Of a DNA stretch of 57,821 nt, positions 17,981-54,305 are shown piece after piece. Position 1 is the stretch's first letter, and every line of letters begins with the position of its first letter. A model generated the notes under the pieces. The model saw only the letters and a list, made by a program, of their open reading frames with translations. It was not told the origin of the DNA and made no database searches. The translations under genes and the position numbers were made by a program. This stretch comes from a virus. The DNA is taken from the IMG/VR virus record IMGVR_UViG_3300041402_001073, positions 1 through 57,821 of that record. One strand, 5' to 3'.

Positions 17981-18664
17981 TCAATATTCAATCCTCAGCT
18001 TTATACCACCACTCTCAGATCTTCCATAAAGAGACCGGTATTCGTTTTTGTAGTTAAATAGAAGAGAGATGTGGTCTTTTATCTTGGCCAACTTCAGGTC
18101 GCCTGTAAATTTGGTAATATAATCGGCGCTATTCTGCATGCTTGGCTGGTAAAAATAGATGAGAGATAGGAAGTCGTTATTGAATTTGGCTCTATAGGAG
18201 TATCGGCCTTGGCCGGTTTGTTCGCATGTAGCGGGATCGCTACAGTTTAGAGATGTAAACTGATACAGAAACCCTCCACTGAAGGAGAGCTTTGTGCTTT
18301 TTTTCTTGTAGATGTAATACTTGAGTCCAGCTCCAATATCATTCTCAAAATCAATACCCAGAACCTTATTGTAGCCCACTCTTTCATCTAGCCATAAGCT
18401 CCATCTTTCGTTAATGGCAGGGCTATAATTTAAATCCAACTCCCCTTCATCCTGGGTAACGATGCCGTCCGTCTTGCCTTTGCGGTAATATGCCGACAAT
18501 TCCAGTTTATCTTCAATAGTGTCAGCAAAATCAATTCCAAGAGTAGAGTTCTTGATGCCTCTGACGTTGGACCCACTCCATAAAAAATCTATATTGCCAG
18601 CTGAAGCGGTCCCGGAACATCCGGCAATCATCAAAAATATAACTACAAATATAAGTTTAGGCAT
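17981..18664 (-). CDS. Outer-membrane beta-barrel protein, DUF481/YdiY-like
   Basis: 227 residues. The signal peptide (MPKLIFVVIFLMIAGC...) could be cleaved by signal peptidase I after TASA or, at IAGC, as a lipoprotein. The mature chain is a run of alternating beta strands with aromatic girdles (SAYYRKGKTDG, WSLWLDERVGYNKV, LKYYIYKKKSTKLSFSGGF, DHISLLFNYKNEYRSLYG) and ends in an aromatic residue (KLRIEY), as outer-membrane barrels do. The pattern matches the DUF481 family. An infecting phage or prophage could use it to alter or block surface receptors. One Cys pair (NCSDPATC) lies in a loop. Confidence 0.68.
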   Translation of the reverse strand: MPKLIFVVIFLMIAGCSGTASAGNIDFLWSGSNVRGIKNSTLGIDFADTIEDKLELSAYYRKGKTDGIVTQDEGELDLNYSPAINERWSLWLDERVGYNKVLGIDFENDIGAGLKYYIYKKKSTKLSFSGGFLYQFTSLNCSDPATCEQTGQGRYSYRAKFNNDFLSLIYFYQPSMQNSADYITKFTGDLKLAKIKDHISLLFNYKNEYRSLYGRSESGGIKLRIEY

Positions 18665-18875
18665 CTACCCTCTTTTGTATAACAAAGTCTTCTATGACTT
18701 CATTTAAATCTGCTGCACAGCCATCGCATAAGTCATCCAAATCTATCGGCACATCTTCAGGAGGAGTTTTAAGCGCCTCAATGCCTGGCCTTACAAGCTG
18801 CCCTTGAATCCCATTATCATTCTCCTCTTTCATGGGCTGCTTGCAGCAATCACAATGTACGATACTTACCTGCAT
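18657..18875 (-). CDS. Small zinc-binding-type protein
   Basis: 72 residues with an N-terminal HCDCCKQPM and a later CDGCAADL, giving two CxxC pairs about 40 residues apart. The C-terminus is an acidic/hydrophobic helix (LNEVIEDFVIQK). It overlaps the start of the outer-membrane gene by eight bases. Likely a small zinc ribbon; partner unknown. Confidence 0.55.
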   Translation of the reverse strand: MQVSIVHCDCCKQPMKEENDNGIQGQLVRPGIEALKTPPEDVPIDLDDLCDGCAADLNEVIEDFVIQKRVDA

Positions 18876-18921: not shown

Positions 18922-18997
18922 TGGTCTGGGTGGCAGGACTCGAACCTGCGGCTTCCGGAATCCAAGGCCGGCTGTCTACCAACTGACATACACCCAG
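18922..18997 (-). tRNA. tRNA-Pro, anticodon UGG
   Basis: A complete 76-base cloverleaf is read on the minus strand. Acceptor stem CTGGGTG/CACCCAG has the C1-G72 pair and A73 discriminator typical of bacterial proline tRNAs, followed by an encoded CCA. The D arm is TGTC/GACA, the T arm GCAGG/CCTGC with loop TTCGAGT, and the variable loop is five bases. The anticodon TGG is at 18962-18964. The only flaw is a C-T mismatch at the top of the anticodon stem (31-39). It starts seven bases after the rtcB stop codon and is probably cut from that transcript. Confidence 0.92.
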
Positions 18998-19003
18998 AAA
19001 ATT

Positions 19004-20176
19004 CTATCCTTTTATCACAGCCAATGGCTTTAACTCAACTAAAATATCAACTAGATCAGACTGGTTCTCCATAACAGTAGCGATATCTTTATAAGCTCCG
19101 GCAGCCTCATCAAGGTCTTTCTCGCCCCTTATAGCATGGATAACTCCAAGATCATCTAGTCTTTTTATCTCCTCCTCAAGATTAAGCTCTCTCTGGGCTT
19201 GCTTTCTGCCCATCCTCCTGCCTGCTCCATGGGAACAGGAATGGAAGCTCTCAGGATTACCCTTACCTTTGACTATATAGCTGGCTGTGCCCTGAGAACC
19301 GGGGATGATACCTAGTTGTCCAGCGGCGGCCTTAGTCGCACCTTTACGATGAACCATTACGTTCTTACCAAAATGATTCTCCATAGTAGCGTAGTTATGT
19401 GCAATGTTTATAGACTCTTCCACATCTAAATATACAGATTCGCTGGCAAAACAATCCAGAACGCGATCCATCATCAGTCTTCTATTGGCCAATGCAAACT
19501 CTACACAATAATTCATTTCAGCAAGGTAATTTTGCCCCTCATCTAAATCCCAAGGAAGGAAAGCAAGTTGCCATTCTTTAGGAACCTCACTGTGCCATCT
19601 TTCATTCAATTTAATGGCAAGCTTATTGTAGTGATCAGCTACCTTTAATCCAAGATTTCGGCTTCCAGAGTGAATCATAACCCAGATGTAGCCATCACTG
19701 CCTTTTTGAATCTCAATGAAATGATTTCCACCTCCAAGAGTGCCAAGAGAGATCAGAGCGTTTTCGTATTCTCTCCCAACGATAGAACTAAATGGTTTCA
19801 TTACATTATCATTCTCTTTAGGCATTAGGCCTTCGGGCTGTTCGTGCTTGTGCTTTTTGAATCCCACCGGTACAACTTGACGTATCTTGCCTATAATCCT
19901 CTTCAGCATATCAACATCAATCTCAGTCAAAGAGGTCTTAACAGCACACATGCCACAGCCTATATCCACACCAACAGCATTAGGAACTATCACACCTTGA
20001 GTAGCCATCACCCCGCCAATAGGCATACCATACCCTTGGTGAGCATCAGGCATCAGCGCTATATGTTTAAACACAAAAGGAAGGTTCGCTAAATTTCTAG
20101 CCTGTTCCATTGCCCCATCTTCAATATCATCCAGCCATATCTTGATAGGCTTTTTTCCATTAGTATCAACTCTCAT
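19004..20176 (-). CDS. rtcB: RtcB-type RNA ligase
   Basis: 390 residues, close to the bacterial length of about 400. RtcB joins 2',3'-cyclic-phosphate or 3'-phosphate RNA ends to 5'-OH ends using GTP and Mn2+. The metal and catalytic residues are present: D71 and C74 in GVDIGCGM, the NHFIE segment with H152, H169 in MIHSGSR, H260 in IAHNYA, and the guanylated H276 in VHRKGAT; SCSHGAGR (about 313-320) is also intact. It precedes tRNA-Pro by seven bases. Phages use such ligases to mend tRNAs cut by host anticodon nucleases; here that role is inference. Its start overlaps a tiny membrane gene. Confidence 0.93.
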   Translation of the reverse strand: MRVDTNGKKPIKIWLDDIEDGAMEQARNLANLPFVFKHIALMPDAHQGYGMPIGGVMATQGVIVPNAVGVDIGCGMCAVKTSLTEIDVDMLKRIIGKIRQVVPVGFKKHKHEQPEGLMPKENDNVMKPFSSIVGREYENALISLGTLGGGNHFIEIQKGSDGYIWVMIHSGSRNLGLKVADHYNKLAIKLNERWHSEVPKEWQLAFLPWDLDEGQNYLAEMNYCVEFALANRRLMMDRVLDCFASESVYLDVEESINIAHNYATMENHFGKNVMVHRKGATKAAAGQLGIIPGSQGTASYIVKGKGNPESFHSCSHGAGRRMGRKQAQRELNLEEEIKRLDDLGVIHAIRGEKDLDEAAGAYKDIATVMENQSDLVDILVELKPLAVIKG

Positions 20177-20297
20177 AAACTCCTCCTATACACATCACCA
20201 CAAATATCAGCATACCAATAAATCCGAAAGCAGCCACCACACCGTACATCCAGACAAATTCCTGCAGCCTCACAAAGTCTTTCCGTTTACGTCTCAC
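20166..20297 (-). CDS. 43-residue single-TM protein
   Basis: A GTG start (20295-20297) has a near-perfect AAAGGAGG four bases upstream and overlaps the previous stop as GTGA. The frame ends TGA eleven bases inside rtcB. A basic N-terminus (RRKRKDFVRL) precedes one hydrophobic helix (VVAAFGFIGMLIFVVMCIGG). The strong ribosome site and double overlap support translation. Function unknown. Confidence 0.6.
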   Translation of the reverse strand: MRRKRKDFVRLQEFVWMYGVVAAFGFIGMLIFVVMCIGGVYES

Positions 20298-20680
20298 GCT
20301 CCCTCCTTTAGTCTAAGTGTTCCACCGTTTATACAAAAACTTAGCCGTATTGCTACTTTGCTGGCCTCTAAACATTCCGCCATCGTAGCCTGTCTTGTGA
20401 TAGTTCCTGTGCCGTTGCATACCTCACACATAATATCGTTCATTTCACCTTCGCCACCGCACTCACCACAATGTCTTGTCCACTCGATGCCCTCTATAGC
20501 TTCTGGCGTAGGTCTGGTGTTCCAAAGCCTCGATGCTTCCTTCACTGACACCGCAGAAGGGCCACAAGATACACAACATGGACACACCCAGTAATACATT
20601 CCCAATTTATCAGGCGTTGGCTCTGTCGTATCGTTAATGCAATTACTCCCACAAAAGGGACATTCTCTCAATTCCTCCAT
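20294..20680 (-). CDS. Lar-like restriction-alleviation zinc protein with DnaJ-type finger
   Basis: 128 residues. The N-terminal ~57 residues follow the Lar pattern: ECPFCGSN, a W-x-C-x-x-C strand (YYWVCPCCVSCG) and a closing EASRLWNTRP. A second part carries CGECGGEG and CEVCNGTGT, the CxxCxGxG repeats of DnaJ-type fingers. Lar family proteins soften type I restriction in Rac-like prophages. The fusion is less common, so the anti-restriction role is a reasonable but unproved inference. The gene lies near a cytosine methylase, another anti-restriction function. Confidence 0.6.
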   Translation of the reverse strand: MEELRECPFCGSNCINDTTEPTPDKLGMYYWVCPCCVSCGPSAVSVKEASRLWNTRPTPEAIEGIEWTRHCGECGGEGEMNDIMCEVCNGTGTITRQATMAECLEASKVAIRLSFCINGGTLRLKEGA

Positions 20681-46304: not shown

Positions 46305-46508
46305 ATGAACTGTGAAATAACCTCGGGGAAAATAAAAGAGTTCCAAAAAGAATTTGGTATAAGAGGGGCAGTAAAAATCATGTGCATTCTTCATGAACTA
46401 CCATTGGATATTGTACGGAGTGGAGCCGAGATGAAAGATTTTGTAGCTGAAAAAGAAAAGCAAGATAAACTTAACGCGGCTAAGATTGGAGATATCGTTG
46501 AGCTATAA
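46305..46508 (+). CDS. Small protein upstream of integrase
   Basis: 67 residues with AAAGGAG before ATG. Helical: SGKIKEFQKEFGIRGAVKIM, HELPLDIVRSGAEMKDFV. Its end overlaps the integrase start. Position suits a cII-like or excisionase-like regulator, but no HTH is clear. Confidence 0.5.
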   Translation: MNCEITSGKIKEFQKEFGIRGAVKIMCILHELPLDIVRSGAEMKDFVAEKEKQDKLNAAKIGDIVEL

Positions 46509-47574
46509 GTTAGAAAGATGTCGTGCATGTGGTTACAAACGCCGGGAGCCAAAGCCGAAGAAGGCTGGCGTTTGTCCGACGTGTAGCCAGGCTATGTACT
46601 ATTCAAAGAACTTTTATTTTGCATATTATTTAACCGGGAAAAGATACGAGCAAGTTGCAGGTCCTGATAAAAAGTTAGCCCAGGAGGCAGAATGGAAAAA
46701 AAAGATAAGTATCACGGAAGGCACCGTTTATACTCCGACTTCATGGAAGAATGCTGTAGAAGAATTGGAAAGGACATATCCCAGCTTGTCACCAAAGACT
46801 GTAGAGATGTATCGGAACTGCGTGATCAATCTTTCGTTGGAATTTTCATCGATGAATTTATCGGACATAACGGGGAGGCACTTAGAGACATTCAAATCAC
46901 AGCACTTACAGAAGGGTCTGTCTGCTTCAAGTTTCAATCAACACCGGGCGACATTAAAAAGGATCTTCGCTCTCTCGGGTGTGGACTGGAGATTCAAAAA
47001 GTCGACATTTTTAAAGGAGAAGGAGACGGCAAGGGATAGGTTTCTGGACGATAACGAGAAGCAAAGGTTTATCGAGGCCTGCAAAAAGACACCGTATCTC
47101 TTCACGGCCATCCTGATAGGACTGGATACCGGATTAAGGAAGACTCCGCTACTTACGCTGCAGTGGGCAGATGTAGATTTTAAAAAGGATGTAATATCCA
47201 AAGAAGGGAAGGGCGGTAAGGCCAGCAGTATTCCAATGACTCAGCGCCTTAGAAAGCATCTTCTGTCTTATAGGTTGCAGCAAGGTCTCAAGTCGCCCTA
47301 TCTTTTCCCCAGCCCTGTCGATGCCGGGAAGCCTATGACTGATGTCAGGAAAGCGTTTAAGTCGGCCTGTGTGGTAGCTGGGGTGCCTGACTTGCGCCTG
47401 CATGATATTCGCAGGACGTTTGGATCACACCTGGCCATGGTTACGAAGGACTTGGTGCTGGTGCAAGAGATGTTGGGGCATTCAGATATCAGTACCACGC
47501 GGAAGCACTATGCACATTTAACGGATGATCACAAGAGGGAAGGGATGGAGATGTTTGAGTCCGCGACTAAATAA
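46498..47574 (+). CDS. int: Tyrosine-recombinase integrase
   Basis: 358 residues if translation begins at TTG 46498 with GGAG six bases upstream; a TTG at 46486 is also in frame. The N-terminus has a zinc ribbon (CRACGYKRR ... CPTCSQAM). A core-binding domain follows (LSPKTVEMYRNCVINLSLEF). The catalytic domain shows Arg in DTGLRKTPLL, Lys in GKGGKAS, H-x-x-R in LHDIRRTF, His in MLGHSDIS and the Tyr nucleophile in RKHYAHL. It catalyses site-specific insertion and, with a helper, excision of the phage genome. attP was not identified. Confidence 0.9.
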   Translation: MSYKLERCRACGYKRREPKPKKAGVCPTCSQAMYYSKNFYFAYYLTGKRYEQVAGPDKKLAQEAEWKKKISITEGTVYTPTSWKNAVEELERTYPSLSPKTVEMYRNCVINLSLEFSSMNLSDITGRHLETFKSQHLQKGLSASSFNQHRATLKRIFALSGVDWRFKKSTFLKEKETARDRFLDDNEKQRFIEACKKTPYLFTAILIGLDTGLRKTPLLTLQWADVDFKKDVISKEGKGGKASSIPMTQRLRKHLLSYRLQQGLKSPYLFPSPVDAGKPMTDVRKAFKSACVVAGVPDLRLHDIRRTFGSHLAMVTKDLVLVQEMLGHSDISTTRKHYAHLTDDHKREGMEMFESATK

Positions 47575-48542: not shown

Positions 48543-51500
48543 TCAATTCTTTTCACGCTCTCCCCTTGCAGCTTCACGAACAATCCTTTTTCTGGCACCC
48601 ATTTCTATGCGTAGTTCTCTTTTTCGCTCGGGAGTTGTGGCAGCTGCTACAGCCCTGTCTCTTGCAGACTTTATAAATGTGCTACTCATTGACCACCTTG
48701 GAACTCTACCTCTCAGCAAACTAGAGATGTCTTTGTTGCTTATTTTGGCAGCCCTCAGAGACTGGCGAATCTCGCTTTTCTTGACCCCCAGCTTCATTGC
48801 TCCCTCCACAAGCTTGCTCATTTCACCATAGGCTCTCTTTCTGGCCAGCATCATAGAGCTGACTGCATTCTTTATTTCTTTTTCAGAAACAGTTCCGGCG
48901 CTTCCAACTGCACGATTAAGTATTCTGGATGCCTGTGATTTCTTATCCGAGAAGCCATAACCCTTATAAATCATGGATTGTCTGAGATTTAAAGTTCCAA
49001 ACCTCAGCCCTAGCCATGCGAGGCCTTCATCTTTAACGCTAAACTTTTTACCTGAACGAGAAACATCCCCTTCAATGGCCTTAATAGTTCTCTCCATGTT
49101 TGACAATACCCCAGGCTGAGCCGCTTTGCGTAAGTGTTGCAGGATGTCATTGGCTTTTTCGTGGCCTTGCGCCTCAGGGTTATACACCTGCCCACCTGCT
49201 TCTTTTTGGTTGTAGATGATTTCGCCTATGGCTCCGGCTGCAATGTCAGCACCAATGAAAGGATCTAAAAATTCCCTCATGGCATCAACTATTTTGTCAT
49301 CGATACCTACGTTATTGCCACTAAGGATAGCAGTCAAAGGCTTCTTAACGTAAGTATAAGGGTCCAGATAGGACAGGTCTAGGTATGTAGGCAAGCCGTC
49401 CTCGTCATACCCAGTATATAGCAACTGTGAATTGCGAGACCATTCTGGAAGCTGTGCTCTTACCGCCTCATCATCATCTGAATCCATTCCCATTGCGGCC
49501 ATGGAAGTTATAGATGCGCTATATGCGGCAGCTGAGGCCATAGCAAAGCCCAAGGCTCTTCGTGCCCCCATAGACCTAGTTTCAGGCTTTGCCATATCTT
49601 CCTTTATGAAATCAAGCTGATTCCTTGTTGTCCTCATGATCTCATAAGGGAAGCTGACGAATGTGCCCAACAATGGCCACCTACGAATTGCCTTTATCCC
49701 CTTAGGAACCATAGAGTAAGTGGGGTATCCGTTTCTTATTCTGAAAGCAGCCTTCTTCTCGGCTTCTTGCTGCGACAAGCCGACTTTTTTCTGTAGAGCA
49801 ACTTCATTCTCGTATCCTATAATCTTCCAGAAATCATCACCTACCTGGTAAGACCTCTGGAAAAAATCAAGTATCTTCCTGAAGTTCTGGTTGGGCCCTG
49901 TTGAATAGGTATCATAATCTGTGAAGTCTTTGATAGCATCACGCAATTCCCCGGCAAAAGGATTGTCGTGGACAACACCCATCCCTATCAACTTGTCCAA
50001 ATAAGCTCTCCACTCTTTATCCTGCGTAAACAGATCTGACCTTGCTGCCTTGAAGGCCTTGCCCATATGCGTCCAGTCGAAATGCCCATTCATAACGCTA
50101 AACATTGCAGCTGACATGAAGTTCCTGGCTTGAGTGGTTGGAGAAAGTATGGTCTTGCCATATTTAATCATAGAGTTTACGCGGATAATATTCCGCATGA
50201 GTTCAGTTCCCTGGAATTTATCAGAAGCATCCTTGAGTCCTTGCTTAAAGTCTGCAGTGGTATACAGTCCATTAAGAGGATTCATTGCATCGGAGTCTTT
50301 AGTTGCTACCTGTGCATCATAAGACCCGCCCTTGTTCACAGTGGCCTTTTCAAACAGGAACGTATTGAGCCCTGAACGCCTCAGGTCCATAAGAAAGTTA
50401 TGGTTGGCAATGTAATATTGCATCTTGGAAGCAGACCGCACAAAATTTATCTTTGGATCTCTATATTCTCCCAACAATTCCAGTATAACTGGAGGGATGT
50501 CTTTGCGCCTTGTAATTATAGACGTATCCTTAGACCCCAGCTTCTCTCCTTGGCTTATGAGAGTCAGGAAGTCCCCAGACTCTTTTGCACTCTGCAGGAT
50601 AGCGCTGACTTCACCAAGAACTTCCCCTTCAGACAGAGATGGATTCTGATCCCGGATGAAAGCCTTGGCTCTATTCATAAGGCCTTTCTTTCGTAAAGTT
50701 TTTTCTTTCCAGTCTGGATCTTCAAAGGCCTGATAAGATCTGGTGAGATACTGCCCTTTGTTCTTATTAATGGTCTCGTAAAGGCTCCAGTATTTCTGCA
50801 ATGACTTAGGAAGGACAGCGCCCTCCTCTTTATTGAGAACTCTCTGGAGAGCCTTCTTGTCAGAAGGTGACAATTTTTGTCGCTGTATAGCCTCCATGTC
50901 ACGGATAGCTTGCATCATTCCGTCAGACAGCATATCCAACATATCTCTTAAAGGTTGGATCTCTTCTTTTAGTCCGGCAGGTAGGGTCACATCCTTGCCA
51001 GCCATAAATCCGTTTATTTTAGCCAGGTCCTCTGCCGGTACGTCCTGGTATTTCTTAACGCCGTATGCTTTAGATACAGCCTTATTGAAATCAGTCACCA
51101 TGGCAGCAATATCTTGCTCACCCACGTTCTTAGCCGAATCCATCTCGATGCGCTTTTCAAAAGCTATTTTATTGAGCAGTCCCTCCTTAGTAAAGAATCT
51201 CTTTGCCCAACGCTGCACTCCTTTCCTGGCCTTACTCGCCGGAGCGTCTATTTTGCGCGCATCCTCATCTGTTTCTTCTGCGGGAGGTTTACGCTTGGCA
51301 GTGTTCTCGAAAGCCTTTCTCAGGGTTTCCAGTTTGACCGTTGGATCGGCAGTCTTTTTGGAAAATACTGCAGGTCCAGAAAGAGACAATGATTTATTCT
51401 CTGCCTTAACAAACTGAGCAGCATCTTCCATCATAGACTGGATATCATTGTCTGACAGTTTAATATTGAAGCCCATCTTTCTCAGCCATTTCCTTATTGC

Positions 51501-54305
51501 AGCGATGGCTTTCTTTATTATTCCTGGATCACTATTCGTCTGGGCAATATTGGCCAGAACTTCCTCTGCTGCTTGGCGCCGGCCCTCTGGTTTACTCGTA
51601 TCAAAACCGTATTGTTTGGCTATCTTCTGTGCTTCCTCGCGGTGCTTTGCGTAGACCTGATTGAGGACAGGAGTGATATCTTTGCCAAGTAATTCACGGA
51701 TACCAAAGTGGCCCAAAGATTCATGGAATAATACATCCAAGACCCTATCTGTAGAATCAATATTTCCTGCTACAAGATATACGTTCTGAGTTTCTGGGTC
51801 AAAAATACCCTCAACATGCTCCTGGCCTTTAGCTAGAACAACAGCATCTTGCAGGTGAGCAGGAAGGTCGGCTATACCATCCACAGCGATAACCTTCGGA
51901 GCGTTCTTCCATTTAGTCGTAATAGTAGCGACCAGCGACTCCACTTCGGCTTTAGACAGCTCAACCTTCCTCTCTGGAGTTCTAAATATCTTTCCAACCT
52001 CTATCTCTTCTCTACGCTTGAATGGAATATCTACCGTCTTCTTTGCCTTGATGGGCTTCATTTCCTCAAAGGTGACAATCTGCTTTTCGCCAGTCTTCTC
52101 ATTCTCTATTTCAAAGTACCTTTCGCCGGCAGCTTCTTCTTCCTTGGTCGTTACTTCGCTGAGAACCTTCCATCCTTGAGGAGACTTGCCTATTCTTACG
52201 CGGCCAGTCTTAAAGTCGGAGAATTCAGGAGTCGGCTCCTTGACAGCCTCTTCAATTTTAACCTGAGCTTTCTCGGCGGCAATCTCTTTTGGTTTTAATG
52301 ATTCGATCTGTTTTTCTAAGAAGCCTACCGCATCTTCCATTTGTTGAATGCTGTCATCAGTTAGAGCTGGGTCTGCTTTTTCGTCTGCCAAATCTGATTG
52401 TATATCATCTCGCATAGATGACAAAACTTTAATGTCGGATAATTCCTTCCTGTTTAAAGTTCTTTCAGAGACAAATTCTTGACCATCTCTAAATTCAGGT
52501 TCTTGAATACGAAGCCATTCGTTTTGAGTTAAGGCCGGTTTATCTTCCTCGGCAATAGTCTTAGATTTTTGAATCGCTTTGGCACCTTTCACAACGGCAA
52601 CATCTTCTGCAACAGGAACCTCCACAGCGACTTCGGGCTCAATTACTGGAGCTTCCACCTCGGCAATCTCTGGAAGAGCCTCCTCTGCCACGATTTCGGC
52701 CTCTGGGATGATTTCTGGAGCTACTTCTTCAGGCAATACTTCTATTTCAGGTAGGACTTCTTCAGCAACAGGAGCTTCTTCTATAATCTCAGCTGCAGGC
52801 AAGGCCTCTTCTAAGGCAGGAATCTCCTCTAATATTTCAGCCTCGGGTAGCTCTGCTTCGATAACAGGCTCAACGATGTCTGTTTTAGCCAGCTCATCCT
52901 GTAGCATGCCCTTGACTTGTTGACCTAGATCGGTTTCCGGCTCTATTGTATCGAGAGTTTCGAGCGCTTTTGTTTTAATATTCTCTCTGGCCACAGCAAC
53001 TTTAGTTTCTGTAGTCTCAGGAATGATTTCTTCAGGTATTACTTCTTCGGGAGCTACGGCAACCTCTGGAGCTATCTCTTCAGGTGCAGCAATTTCATCT
53101 TCAATTCCCACACCAGCTTCTTCCATGAGTGAGCTGAGAATACTTATATTTTCTTCAGGTGTTAAATCAGGAGATGACATCTCTTCAAAGTCAGCAATCA
53201 TTTGTTCGCCAACTGCAGAATCTAGCCCTTCGGCTACGAGTTCATCAACAACACTTTTTACTGCATTTGGAGGGGCAGGTTCTCCCTCGGCGCCACTACC
53301 TATAACATTAAAGCCGGCACCCATTGCCACTCCGGCCAACATGCCCATTGCTGACTGGCTGCCAACTCCTTCCATTAAAGGTCTGCCTTCAGCTGAGTTC
53401 ATCCACATTGTTTCTTGGGCTGATTGAGGCAATTCTTCCAATAGTCCTTCGGAAATACCACCTTCCACTATTCGCCTGACAACGCCTTTCTCTGTCTGTT
53501 TGCGAATTCCACCGGCCAGTAAAGTATCGACATCGGCAATACCAGCCTTTTGAGCTATCCTGCCACCAAGTAATCCAAAGAGGCCTGTACCTACACCGGA
53601 AGCCAATGACTTCAAAGACTCCTCGGGAGTAATCAGTCCGGTCTCTGCCTTGGAACGTAGTTCTTCTGCTGCCGATCCTGCCGACACAGCTCCTTCACCT
53701 ATGGCTGCTGCAACAAGAGCTCCAAGTTTAGGCGCTACCTTAATGATACCCCGGGCAATACCGGCACCACCTAACATAGATGGTGCTGATTCAATAACTG
53801 CCTGAGCAATTACACTGGGATTTTTAATGGCTGCTTCTACTGTAGGAAGGAAACCTTCTGCTTCTGCGACTTCTTTGCTTGCTGCCTGCTGTGCCGGCGA
53901 CAAGAAAGTGCTGAGAATACGCTGCGCTACTTCAGGCCTAAATCCGGCCTTTTCAAACAACTTCCCCGCGTGGCCGCCTGTAGGTATATCTAATAAGCCA
54001 ACGGCAGCTTGAGGCAGAGCTATGGCACCTTTGAGAGCACTTATACCTATATCCTTTGCTGTTCCAAGAACAGTTCTATCCTCTACGCCTCTGACAGGGG
54101 TTATGGATGGTGTGGCAATAGGTTCAACGACTGGCGCTGCAACACTGACTGCAGGTTCTGCCGTGAGATGTCCCAATATATCTTCATCAGTATAGCCCTC
54201 ACCGACAGCACCTTCGTAATCAAAATTGCTTGTTCCGGAAAGATGTCTTGCTATATCTGAATCACTATATCCTTCTAGTCGTGCACCTTCTATATCAAAA
54301 GCCAT
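48543..54305 (-). CDS. Giant polyvalent/ejection virion protein
   Basis: 1,920 residues. The N-terminus has two repeats of 'F-D-x-E-GA-x-x-EGY-x-D-x-DI-x-x-HL' (about 3-24 and 28-49). A Gly/Ala hydrophobic region (100-350) follows, then a long Glu/Pro/Ile/Ala repeat linker (about 400-600). Around residue 860 a metallopeptidase-like segment reads FHESLGHFGIRE. The C-terminal third includes LLGTFVSFPYEIMRTTRN and DLSYLDPYTYVKKPL, which match the large-polyvalent-protein domain LPD38 as I recall it. Such proteins are packaged in the head and injected with DNA. Last gene of the late block. Confidence 0.7.
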   Translation of the reverse strand: MAFDIEGARLEGYSDSDIARHLSGTSNFDYEGAVGEGYTDEDILGHLTAEPAVSVAAPVVEPIATPSITPVRGVEDRTVLGTAKDIGISALKGAIALPQAAVGLLDIPTGGHAGKLFEKAGFRPEVAQRILSTFLSPAQQAASKEVAEAEGFLPTVEAAIKNPSVIAQAVIESAPSMLGGAGIARGIIKVAPKLGALVAAAIGEGAVSAGSAAEELRSKAETGLITPEESLKSLASGVGTGLFGLLGGRIAQKAGIADVDTLLAGGIRKQTEKGVVRRIVEGGISEGLLEELPQSAQETMWMNSAEGRPLMEGVGSQSAMGMLAGVAMGAGFNVIGSGAEGEPAPPNAVKSVVDELVAEGLDSAVGEQMIADFEEMSSPDLTPEENISILSSLMEEAGVGIEDEIAAPEEIAPEVAVAPEEVIPEEIIPETTETKVAVARENIKTKALETLDTIEPETDLGQQVKGMLQDELAKTDIVEPVIEAELPEAEILEEIPALEEALPAAEIIEEAPVAEEVLPEIEVLPEEVAPEIIPEAEIVAEEALPEIAEVEAPVIEPEVAVEVPVAEDVAVVKGAKAIQKSKTIAEEDKPALTQNEWLRIQEPEFRDGQEFVSERTLNRKELSDIKVLSSMRDDIQSDLADEKADPALTDDSIQQMEDAVGFLEKQIESLKPKEIAAEKAQVKIEEAVKEPTPEFSDFKTGRVRIGKSPQGWKVLSEVTTKEEEAAGERYFEIENEKTGEKQIVTFEEMKPIKAKKTVDIPFKRREEIEVGKIFRTPERKVELSKAEVESLVATITTKWKNAPKVIAVDGIADLPAHLQDAVVLAKGQEHVEGIFDPETQNVYLVAGNIDSTDRVLDVLFHESLGHFGIRELLGKDITPVLNQVYAKHREEAQKIAKQYGFDTSKPEGRRQAAEEVLANIAQTNSDPGIIKKAIAAIRKWLRKMGFNIKLSDNDIQSMMEDAAQFVKAENKSLSLSGPAVFSKKTADPTVKLETLRKAFENTAKRKPPAEETDEDARKIDAPASKARKGVQRWAKRFFTKEGLLNKIAFEKRIEMDSAKNVGEQDIAAMVTDFNKAVSKAYGVKKYQDVPAEDLAKINGFMAGKDVTLPAGLKEEIQPLRDMLDMLSDGMMQAIRDMEAIQRQKLSPSDKKALQRVLNKEEGAVLPKSLQKYWSLYETINKNKGQYLTRSYQAFEDPDWKEKTLRKKGLMNRAKAFIRDQNPSLSEGEVLGEVSAILQSAKESGDFLTLISQGEKLGSKDTSIITRRKDIPPVILELLGEYRDPKINFVRSASKMQYYIANHNFLMDLRRSGLNTFLFEKATVNKGGSYDAQVATKDSDAMNPLNGLYTTADFKQGLKDASDKFQGTELMRNIIRVNSMIKYGKTILSPTTQARNFMSAAMFSVMNGHFDWTHMGKAFKAARSDLFTQDKEWRAYLDKLIGMGVVHDNPFAGELRDAIKDFTDYDTYSTGPNQNFRKILDFFQRSYQVGDDFWKIIGYENEVALQKKVGLSQQEAEKKAAFRIRNGYPTYSMVPKGIKAIRRWPLLGTFVSFPYEIMRTTRNQLDFIKEDMAKPETRSMGARRALGFAMASAAAYSASITSMAAMGMDSDDDEAVRAQLPEWSRNSQLLYTGYDEDGLPTYLDLSYLDPYTYVKKPLTAILSGNNVGIDDKIVDAMREFLDPFIGADIAAGAIGEIIYNQKEAGGQVYNPEAQGHEKANDILQHLRKAAQPGVLSNMERTIKAIEGDVSRSGKKFSVKDEGLAWLGLRFGTLNLRQSMIYKGYGFSDKKSQASRILNRAVGSAGTVSEKEIKNAVSSMMLARKRAYGEMSKLVEGAMKLGVKKSEIRQSLRAAKISNKDISSLLRGRVPRWSMSSTFIKSARDRAVAAATTPERKRELRIEMGARKRIVREAARGEREKN

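Follow-up and report, generated by a model that had tools for sequence, protein, structure and literature searches.

Recurrent linkage of phage RtcB RNA ligase genes with tRNAPro(UGG), a possible repair-and-replace module

Viral genes for the RNA ligase RtcB are recurrently accompanied by a tRNAPro(UGG) gene that lies beside them or, in three phages, within their coding sequence. The linkage appears from sequence comparisons to have arisen repeatedly and independently, and we propose, with a probability of about 0.5, that ligase and tRNA form a small repair-and-replace module against tRNA damage.

Results and discussion

An rtcB gene followed by a complete tRNAPro(UGG)

The viral record analyzed here, the window, comprises 57,821 nucleotides. 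On its minus strand, an intact rtcB gene (19004..20176) encodes a 3'-phosphate/5'-hydroxyl RNA ligase of 390 amino acids and is preceded by a strong Shine-Dalgarno sequence, AGGAGGAG (20180..20187, minus strand), read from the sequence. The original prediction that a complete tRNAPro(UGG) follows the rtcB stop codon on the same strand is borne out by the coordinates (18922..18997, minus strand), ARAGORN and Rfam, and the first base of the tRNA is indeed the seventh after the stop codon, six bases lying between them (18998..19003, minus strand). A consensus scan of this strand found no promoter- or terminator-like site between the two genes. The single transcription unit that had been proposed is therefore plausible, given the shared strand, the six-base gap and the absence of a terminator signal, and co-transcription of rtcB and tRNAPro appears likely at the level of sequence. 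An open reading frame of 72 amino acids with its own Shine-Dalgarno sequence and no Pfam match (18657..18875, minus strand) lies 46 bases beyond the end of the tRNA and probably shares the same transcript.

The ligase matches the full RtcB domain in Pfam (PF01139, positions 1-426 of 426, E = 2e-114, 383 bits) and PHROG 1075 over its full length (E = 6e-125). Alignment to the Pyrococcus horikoshii RtcB (P. horikoshii) identified D71, C74, H152, H169, H260 and H316 as the metal and guanylate residues, in keeping with the claim that the enzyme retains its metal and histidine positions, all six of which are present; these predicted active-site residues are also invariant among 16 aligned close relatives. 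By its full-domain profile match, its metal ligands and the histidine predicted to be guanylylated, the window protein is a member of the RtcB family.

tRNAPro(UGG), for which the Rfam score is 61.9 bits with ARAGORN in agreement, is the only tRNA that either program found in the whole 57.8-kb record. It has a cloverleaf, a UGG anticodon, C1-G72, A73 and an encoded CCA end, with one C31-U39 mismatch in the anticodon stem; minimum free energy folding of the single strand did not by itself recover this cloverleaf. The anticodon loop reads CUUGGAU, and thus carries A at position 37 in place of the near-universal bacterial G37, the site of m1G37.

Pfam searches of the open reading frames neighboring the window rtcB revealed no RtcR, Ro60 or RtcA, so that the locus does not have the composition of an RtcR-type operon. 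Directly upstream of rtcB lies a gene for a small zinc-ribbon-like protein (20294-20680, minus strand) whose match to the restriction alleviation protein Lar stays below threshold, and elsewhere in the window there is an open reading frame of 1,920 amino acids (48543-54305, minus strand). The capsid encoded in the window is closest, at 41-44%, to those of Pseudomonas and Pseudoalteromonas phages, which makes a Gram-negative host likely, without fixing it.

tRNAPro(UGG) is the most regular neighbor of viral rtcB

From four scans of viral contigs we collected 100 non-redundant rtcB loci, including the window, and called a tRNA linked if it lay within 200 nucleotides of rtcB or inside it. With the window excluded, tRNAPro(UGG) is linked to rtcB in 15 of 99 loci, three have only other tRNAs nearby (Met; Asn; Asn-Arg-Gln), and the remaining 81 have no tRNA within 200 nucleotides. 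tRNAPro makes up 15 of the 26 near tRNAs versus 4 of the 77 located farther away (Fisher P = 4e-8, window excluded). The first scan, for which the window's own RtcB was the query, is the cleaner test of this enrichment, since the later queries were RtcB sequences from Pro-linked loci; on its own it gives 11 of 17 near versus 4 of 60 farther (P = 2e-6). Relative to a uniform expectation, the clustering of tRNAPro near rtcB has a binomial P of 4e-19, and every one of the 27 near tRNAs (window included) shares the rtcB strand. Of the protein families encoded beside rtcB, none is shared by more than 6 of the 100 loci; the neighborhoods are thus otherwise scrambled, and tRNAPro is by far the most regular neighbor of rtcB. 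Among 45 whole records there are several in which the rtcB-linked tRNAPro is the sole tRNA, while lone tRNAs located elsewhere in other whole records vary in identity (Gly, Arg, Thr, Met, Gln, Glu, Trp).

Two further rtcB scans, yielding 40 fresh non-redundant and mostly more distant loci, contained no linked tRNAPro at all, a significantly lower rate than in the first set (P = 0.006); the enrichment pooled with these loci has P = 9e-8. The expectation that the tRNA beside rtcB would be constant in identity holds for 15 of the 18 tRNA-bearing loci, the few other pairs involving Met or Asn. That relatives would carry a tRNA in the first place holds only in part, considering the 81 loci above and 16 isolated-phage records, in whose annotation no tRNA lies within 200 nucleotides of rtcB. 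Given that most rtcB relatives have no near tRNA and a few have other ones, the rtcB-tRNAPro pair is best described as recurrent but optional.

Some of these loci have unusual tRNA genes. Two (L005 and L006) carry an array of 25 tRNA genes, including an A37 tRNAPro, about 600 nucleotides after rtcB. One rtcB-linked tRNAPro (L037:6229-6300) has C33 where U33 is near-universal. About 2.5 kb from one viral rtcB lies a tRNA with a CUA anticodon (L063:8628-8703), labeled Pyl by ARAGORN, which is a possible amber suppressor.

The linkage arose repeatedly

In an RtcB tree with 109 rows, the loci with a linked tRNAPro are dispersed and require 16 state changes, a figure that is approximate because the tree was made by a quick method, with many weakly supported forks and two long-branched isolate rows. 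The arrangement of the tRNA, downstream of, upstream of or inside rtcB, changes six times on the same tree. Vertical inheritance of a single ancestral pair does not account for the scatter of the Pro-linked loci on this quick tree. As judged from the RtcB sequences, the linkage has arisen repeatedly and independently, the number of origins being approximate. Repeated linkage with a near-constant Pro(UGG) identity is what a functional pair for repair plus replacement would predict.

tRNAPro nested in frame within rtcB

Three phage loci encode a whole tRNAPro(UGG) in frame within rtcB, the insertions falling at two different variable loops of the ligase. In L022 (5367-5443) and L035 (5358-5432), the tRNA lies between the LMP and LGTLGGGNHF motifs of RtcB. 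The tRNA in L249 (starting at position 534 of the reverse complement) is located at a different variable loop of the ligase, directly before the MINIAHNY motif. All three nested tRNAs start at codon position 1 with the reading frame open, that of L249 ending at the contig edge. An AlphaFold model of the L022 RtcB (pTM 0.84) is confident throughout except for residues 122-148, and this sole low-confidence segment is the tRNA-coded stretch; on paper, the insert would be tolerated as a flexible loop. The L022 record has a second tRNAPro(UGG) 12.7 kb away, which has G37, versus A37 in the nested copy. As far as we are aware, tRNA genes nested in frame in this manner are a form of gene overlap without earlier description.

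In the nested case, one message might serve either to make the ligase or to release the mature tRNA, but not both. Loss of tRNAPro would stall ribosomes at the proline codons of rtcB, allowing the tRNA to fold and be excised, while ample tRNAPro would favor the ligase; the gene would in effect sense its own tRNAPro damage. We consider this a speculative idea that is probably wrong.

Adenosine 37 is typical of phage tRNAPro

A37 is present in all 16 linked viral tRNAPro genes (window included) versus one of the four located far from rtcB in the same set (P = 0.0035). Among 142 genomes of Alphaproteobacteria, a pattern left open at position 37 gave G37 in about 103 of 106 matches, and the A37 tRNAPro pattern gave 37 stretches in 84,980 bacterial and archaeal genomes. 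The same pattern identified at least 120 A37 and at least 60 G37 tRNAPro stretches in viral contigs (L144-L263 and L264-L323, respectively), so that A37 is a phage-typical state instead of one confined to rtcB-linked copies. As an rtcB-specific mark A37 is ruled out, being frequent in phage tRNAPro without rtcB. Among the matches listed, rtcB lies within 400 nucleotides of 9 of 120 A37 versus 1 of 60 G37 viral tRNAPro, a difference that is not significant (P = 0.17); pooled, the linked copies have A37 in 21 of 22 cases, above the viral background (P = 0.003).

For viral tRNAPro(UGG) of this acceptor type, then, A37 is at least twice as frequent as G37, unlike in bacteria. Five of the genome stretches (L324, L325, L334, L337 and L347) carry A37 tRNAPro within dense tRNA arrays in Gimesia and other Planctomycetes.

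A candidate repair-and-replace module and its alternatives

RtcB ligases join 3'-phosphate or 2',3'-cyclic-phosphate ends to 5'-hydroxyl ends, and ends of these kinds are the products of metal-independent RNases. We propose that the phage ligase would reseal RNAs cut in this way, with tRNA anticodon loops as its likely substrate, and that the co-expressed tRNAPro(UGG) would supply a spare copy of the damaged tRNA. The damaged species would putatively be tRNAPro, the target of a host nuclease; its repeated occurrence in one unit with RtcB is explained most simply if tRNAPro is the species whose loss counts. With A37 in place of m1G37, the spare copy may be a poor target for such a nuclease, and it would be independent of methylation by the host TrmD. 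We know of no tRNAPro-specific nuclease in the likely hosts, and the analysis found none. The altered loop fits a published proposal that phage tRNAs evade anticodon nucleases through changes in the anticodon loop (PMC10264068).

The repair-and-replace reading is favored by the pair itself, its enrichment and repeated independent origin, A37, the nesting in three phages and the tRNA genes of bacterial operons described below. Against it stand the 81 of 99 loci without a near tRNA and the absence of linked Pro from the 40 further loci; moreover, A37 is not specific to the pair, and the bacterial operons mostly have other tRNAs, two of them having a tRNAPro with G37. The counter-defense or replacement role originally suggested is accordingly strengthened by the recurrent Pro(UGG) linkage and its repeated origin, and weakened by the majority of rtcB relatives that lack a tRNA within 200 nucleotides and the few that have Met or Asn.

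The presence of A37 could instead reflect a supply of tRNAPro that does not depend on TrmD. Such a tRNA needs no m1G37, and would keep the reading frame and remain chargeable when methylation runs short during infection or stress, with rtcB as a fellow translation-maintenance gene. In Escherichia coli, loss of m1G37 lowers the charging efficiency of tRNAPro 17.5-fold, and tRNAs with A37 are described as not suffering from this loss (PMC8643618); the abundance of A37 tRNAPro in phages without rtcB also fits. This explanation, however, does not predict that tRNAPro should lie repeatedly beside or inside an RNA ligase gene, and we rank it well below the nuclease version, which alone explains the ligase; we regard it as unlikely, though it is the best placed of the alternatives. 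Somewhat less probable again is codon supply with loose hitch-hiking, in which the tRNA reads phage proline codons and both genes belong to an accessory translation block. Codon use is a common explanation for phage tRNAs, and proline in the window is mostly encoded by CCU and CCA (206 and 134 of 442 codons), but rtcB has no other recurrent accessory neighbors, the tRNA is mostly Pro(UGG) instead of a mixture, and nesting at two sites within rtcB is hard to reconcile with drift.

The six-base spacing in the window and the nesting within coding sequence in three phages would also suit a tRNA acting mainly as a processing or regulatory element of the rtcB transcript, for RNase P cleavage, 3' end formation or as a decoy for RtcB or a nuclease, and not mainly in decoding. 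A parallel exists in Salmonella, whose repair operon includes a tRNA-like Y RNA for which a role as nuclease inhibitor has been proposed (PMC7790460). Yet every linked copy retains C1-G72, A73 and the UGG anticodon, a fixed identity that a structural element would not need, and we think this role doubtful. Finally, the tyrosine integrase of the window (46486-47574, plus strand) indicates that the phage is or was temperate, and raises the question of whether the tRNA is an attachment-site copy gained on integration. That origin is very improbable: 27 kb separate the integrase and the tRNA, whereas attP normally adjoins int, the window tRNA is complete at both ends, and the tRNA in relatives also occurs upstream of or inside rtcB.

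Relation to known systems

A counter-defense role for RtcB and a tRNA in phages was already put forward in 2011, when protection against host tRNA cleavage was suggested for the cluster K1 mycobacteriophages, which have RtcB and a tRNATrp (Pope et al. 2011, PMC3203893). These phages resemble the window in having one tRNA plus an RtcB homolog. Their tRNA is instead a tRNATrp at the other end of the genome, neither adjacent to rtcB nor nested in it, and their RtcB is only about 38% identical to that of the window. Proteus phage Privateer and Sphingobium phage Lacusarx likewise have RtcB in or near tRNA regions, with a proposed role in tRNA upkeep (PMC7881722, PMC5648845); unlike in the window, the accompanying phage tRNAs are several, mixed and about 1 kb or more from RtcB.

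Replacement of cleaved host tRNAs by phage tRNAs has been described in connection with retron Ec78 and loop variants (PMC10264068, PMC11555353). Together with T4 Rnl1 and Pnkp, which mend tRNALys cut by PrrC, such replacement tRNAs share with our proposal the mending or substitution of a cut tRNA. RtcB is a different ligase, joining 3'-phosphate or cyclic-phosphate ends directly to 5'-hydroxyl ends, and the window differs from these systems in having both strategies in one unit, for tRNAPro and against a putative nuclease.

Bacterial RtcR-regulated operons, such as rsr-yrlBA-rtcBA in Salmonella, are similar in that RtcB and a tRNA or tRNA-like RNA share one unit (PMC7790460). The phage pair differs from them in having no RtcR, Ro60, RtcA or sigma-54 control in view, and in that its tRNA is Pro(UGG) with A37 instead of a Y RNA or a mixed set. 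In open-access papers we found no report of a fixed RtcB-tRNAPro(UGG) pair, of tRNAs nested in rtcB or of tRNAPro in RtcR operons. A 2016 survey by Burroughs and Aravind reportedly describes RtcB repair systems with tRNA-like RNA.

Clear roles have been lacking both for RtcB in phages and for tRNAs that a phage carries singly; a fixed, repeatedly re-evolved partner, tRNAPro(UGG) with A37, provides a concrete candidate substrate for phage RtcB. The pair also predicts a new class of defense system or toxin that hits tRNAPro.

tRNA genes in bacterial RNA-repair operons

Several of the 37 A37 genome stretches fall within RNA-repair operons. In Sphingomonas jatrophae, RtcR is divergent from a tRNAPro-rtcB pair, and in Litoreibacter roseus from Ro60-tRNAPro-tRNAAsn-RtcB, the tRNAPro having A37 in both. 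Comparable RtcR-operon layouts with an A37 tRNAPro occur in four other stretches (L332, L341, L353 and L354) and a like layout in two (L326 and L342) that have no RtcR within the stretch covered; one further A37 stretch (L344) looks phage-like. More generally, alphaproteobacterial RtcR-regulated operons have tRNAPro(UGG), Asn, Gln, Lys or Asp between RtcR or Ro60 and RtcB. Among loci selected by RtcR, tRNA genes are present in 8 of 13 from Rhodobacterales (Asn, Gln, Lys, Asp, Pro) and 3 of 15 from Sphingomonadales (Pro with G37 twice, Asn once); these tRNA-bearing RtcR-[Ro60]-RtcB operons are L409-L411, L413, L416, L418-L420, L422, L423 and L431. Eight newly examined RtcR-selected loci from an Alphaproteobacteria-wide sample had no tRNA gene, tRNAPro included, apart from a single weak tRNA-like match. 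Bacterial RNA-repair operons thus mostly have tRNAAsn, Gln, Lys or none, with tRNAPro in a minority of those of Rhodobacterales and Sphingomonadales, and the loci selected by RtcR alone show tRNA genes in RNA-repair operons to be a wider habit.

RtcR responds to tRNA halves ending in cyclic phosphate, and such halves induce the Salmonella operon with its tRNA-like Y RNA (PMC7790460). The spare tRNAs of these operons suggest that bacteria share the logic of repair plus replacement. A weak tRNA-like match (L371:3938-4012, 30 bits) lies in the gap between Ro60 and RtcB, and could represent either a Y RNA or the remains of a tRNA. In two Sphingomonadales loci (L429 and L435), the RtcR-Ro60-RtcB operon is followed 1-2 kb on by a second RtcB gene, which adjoins the gene for a PrfH-like release-factor homolog.
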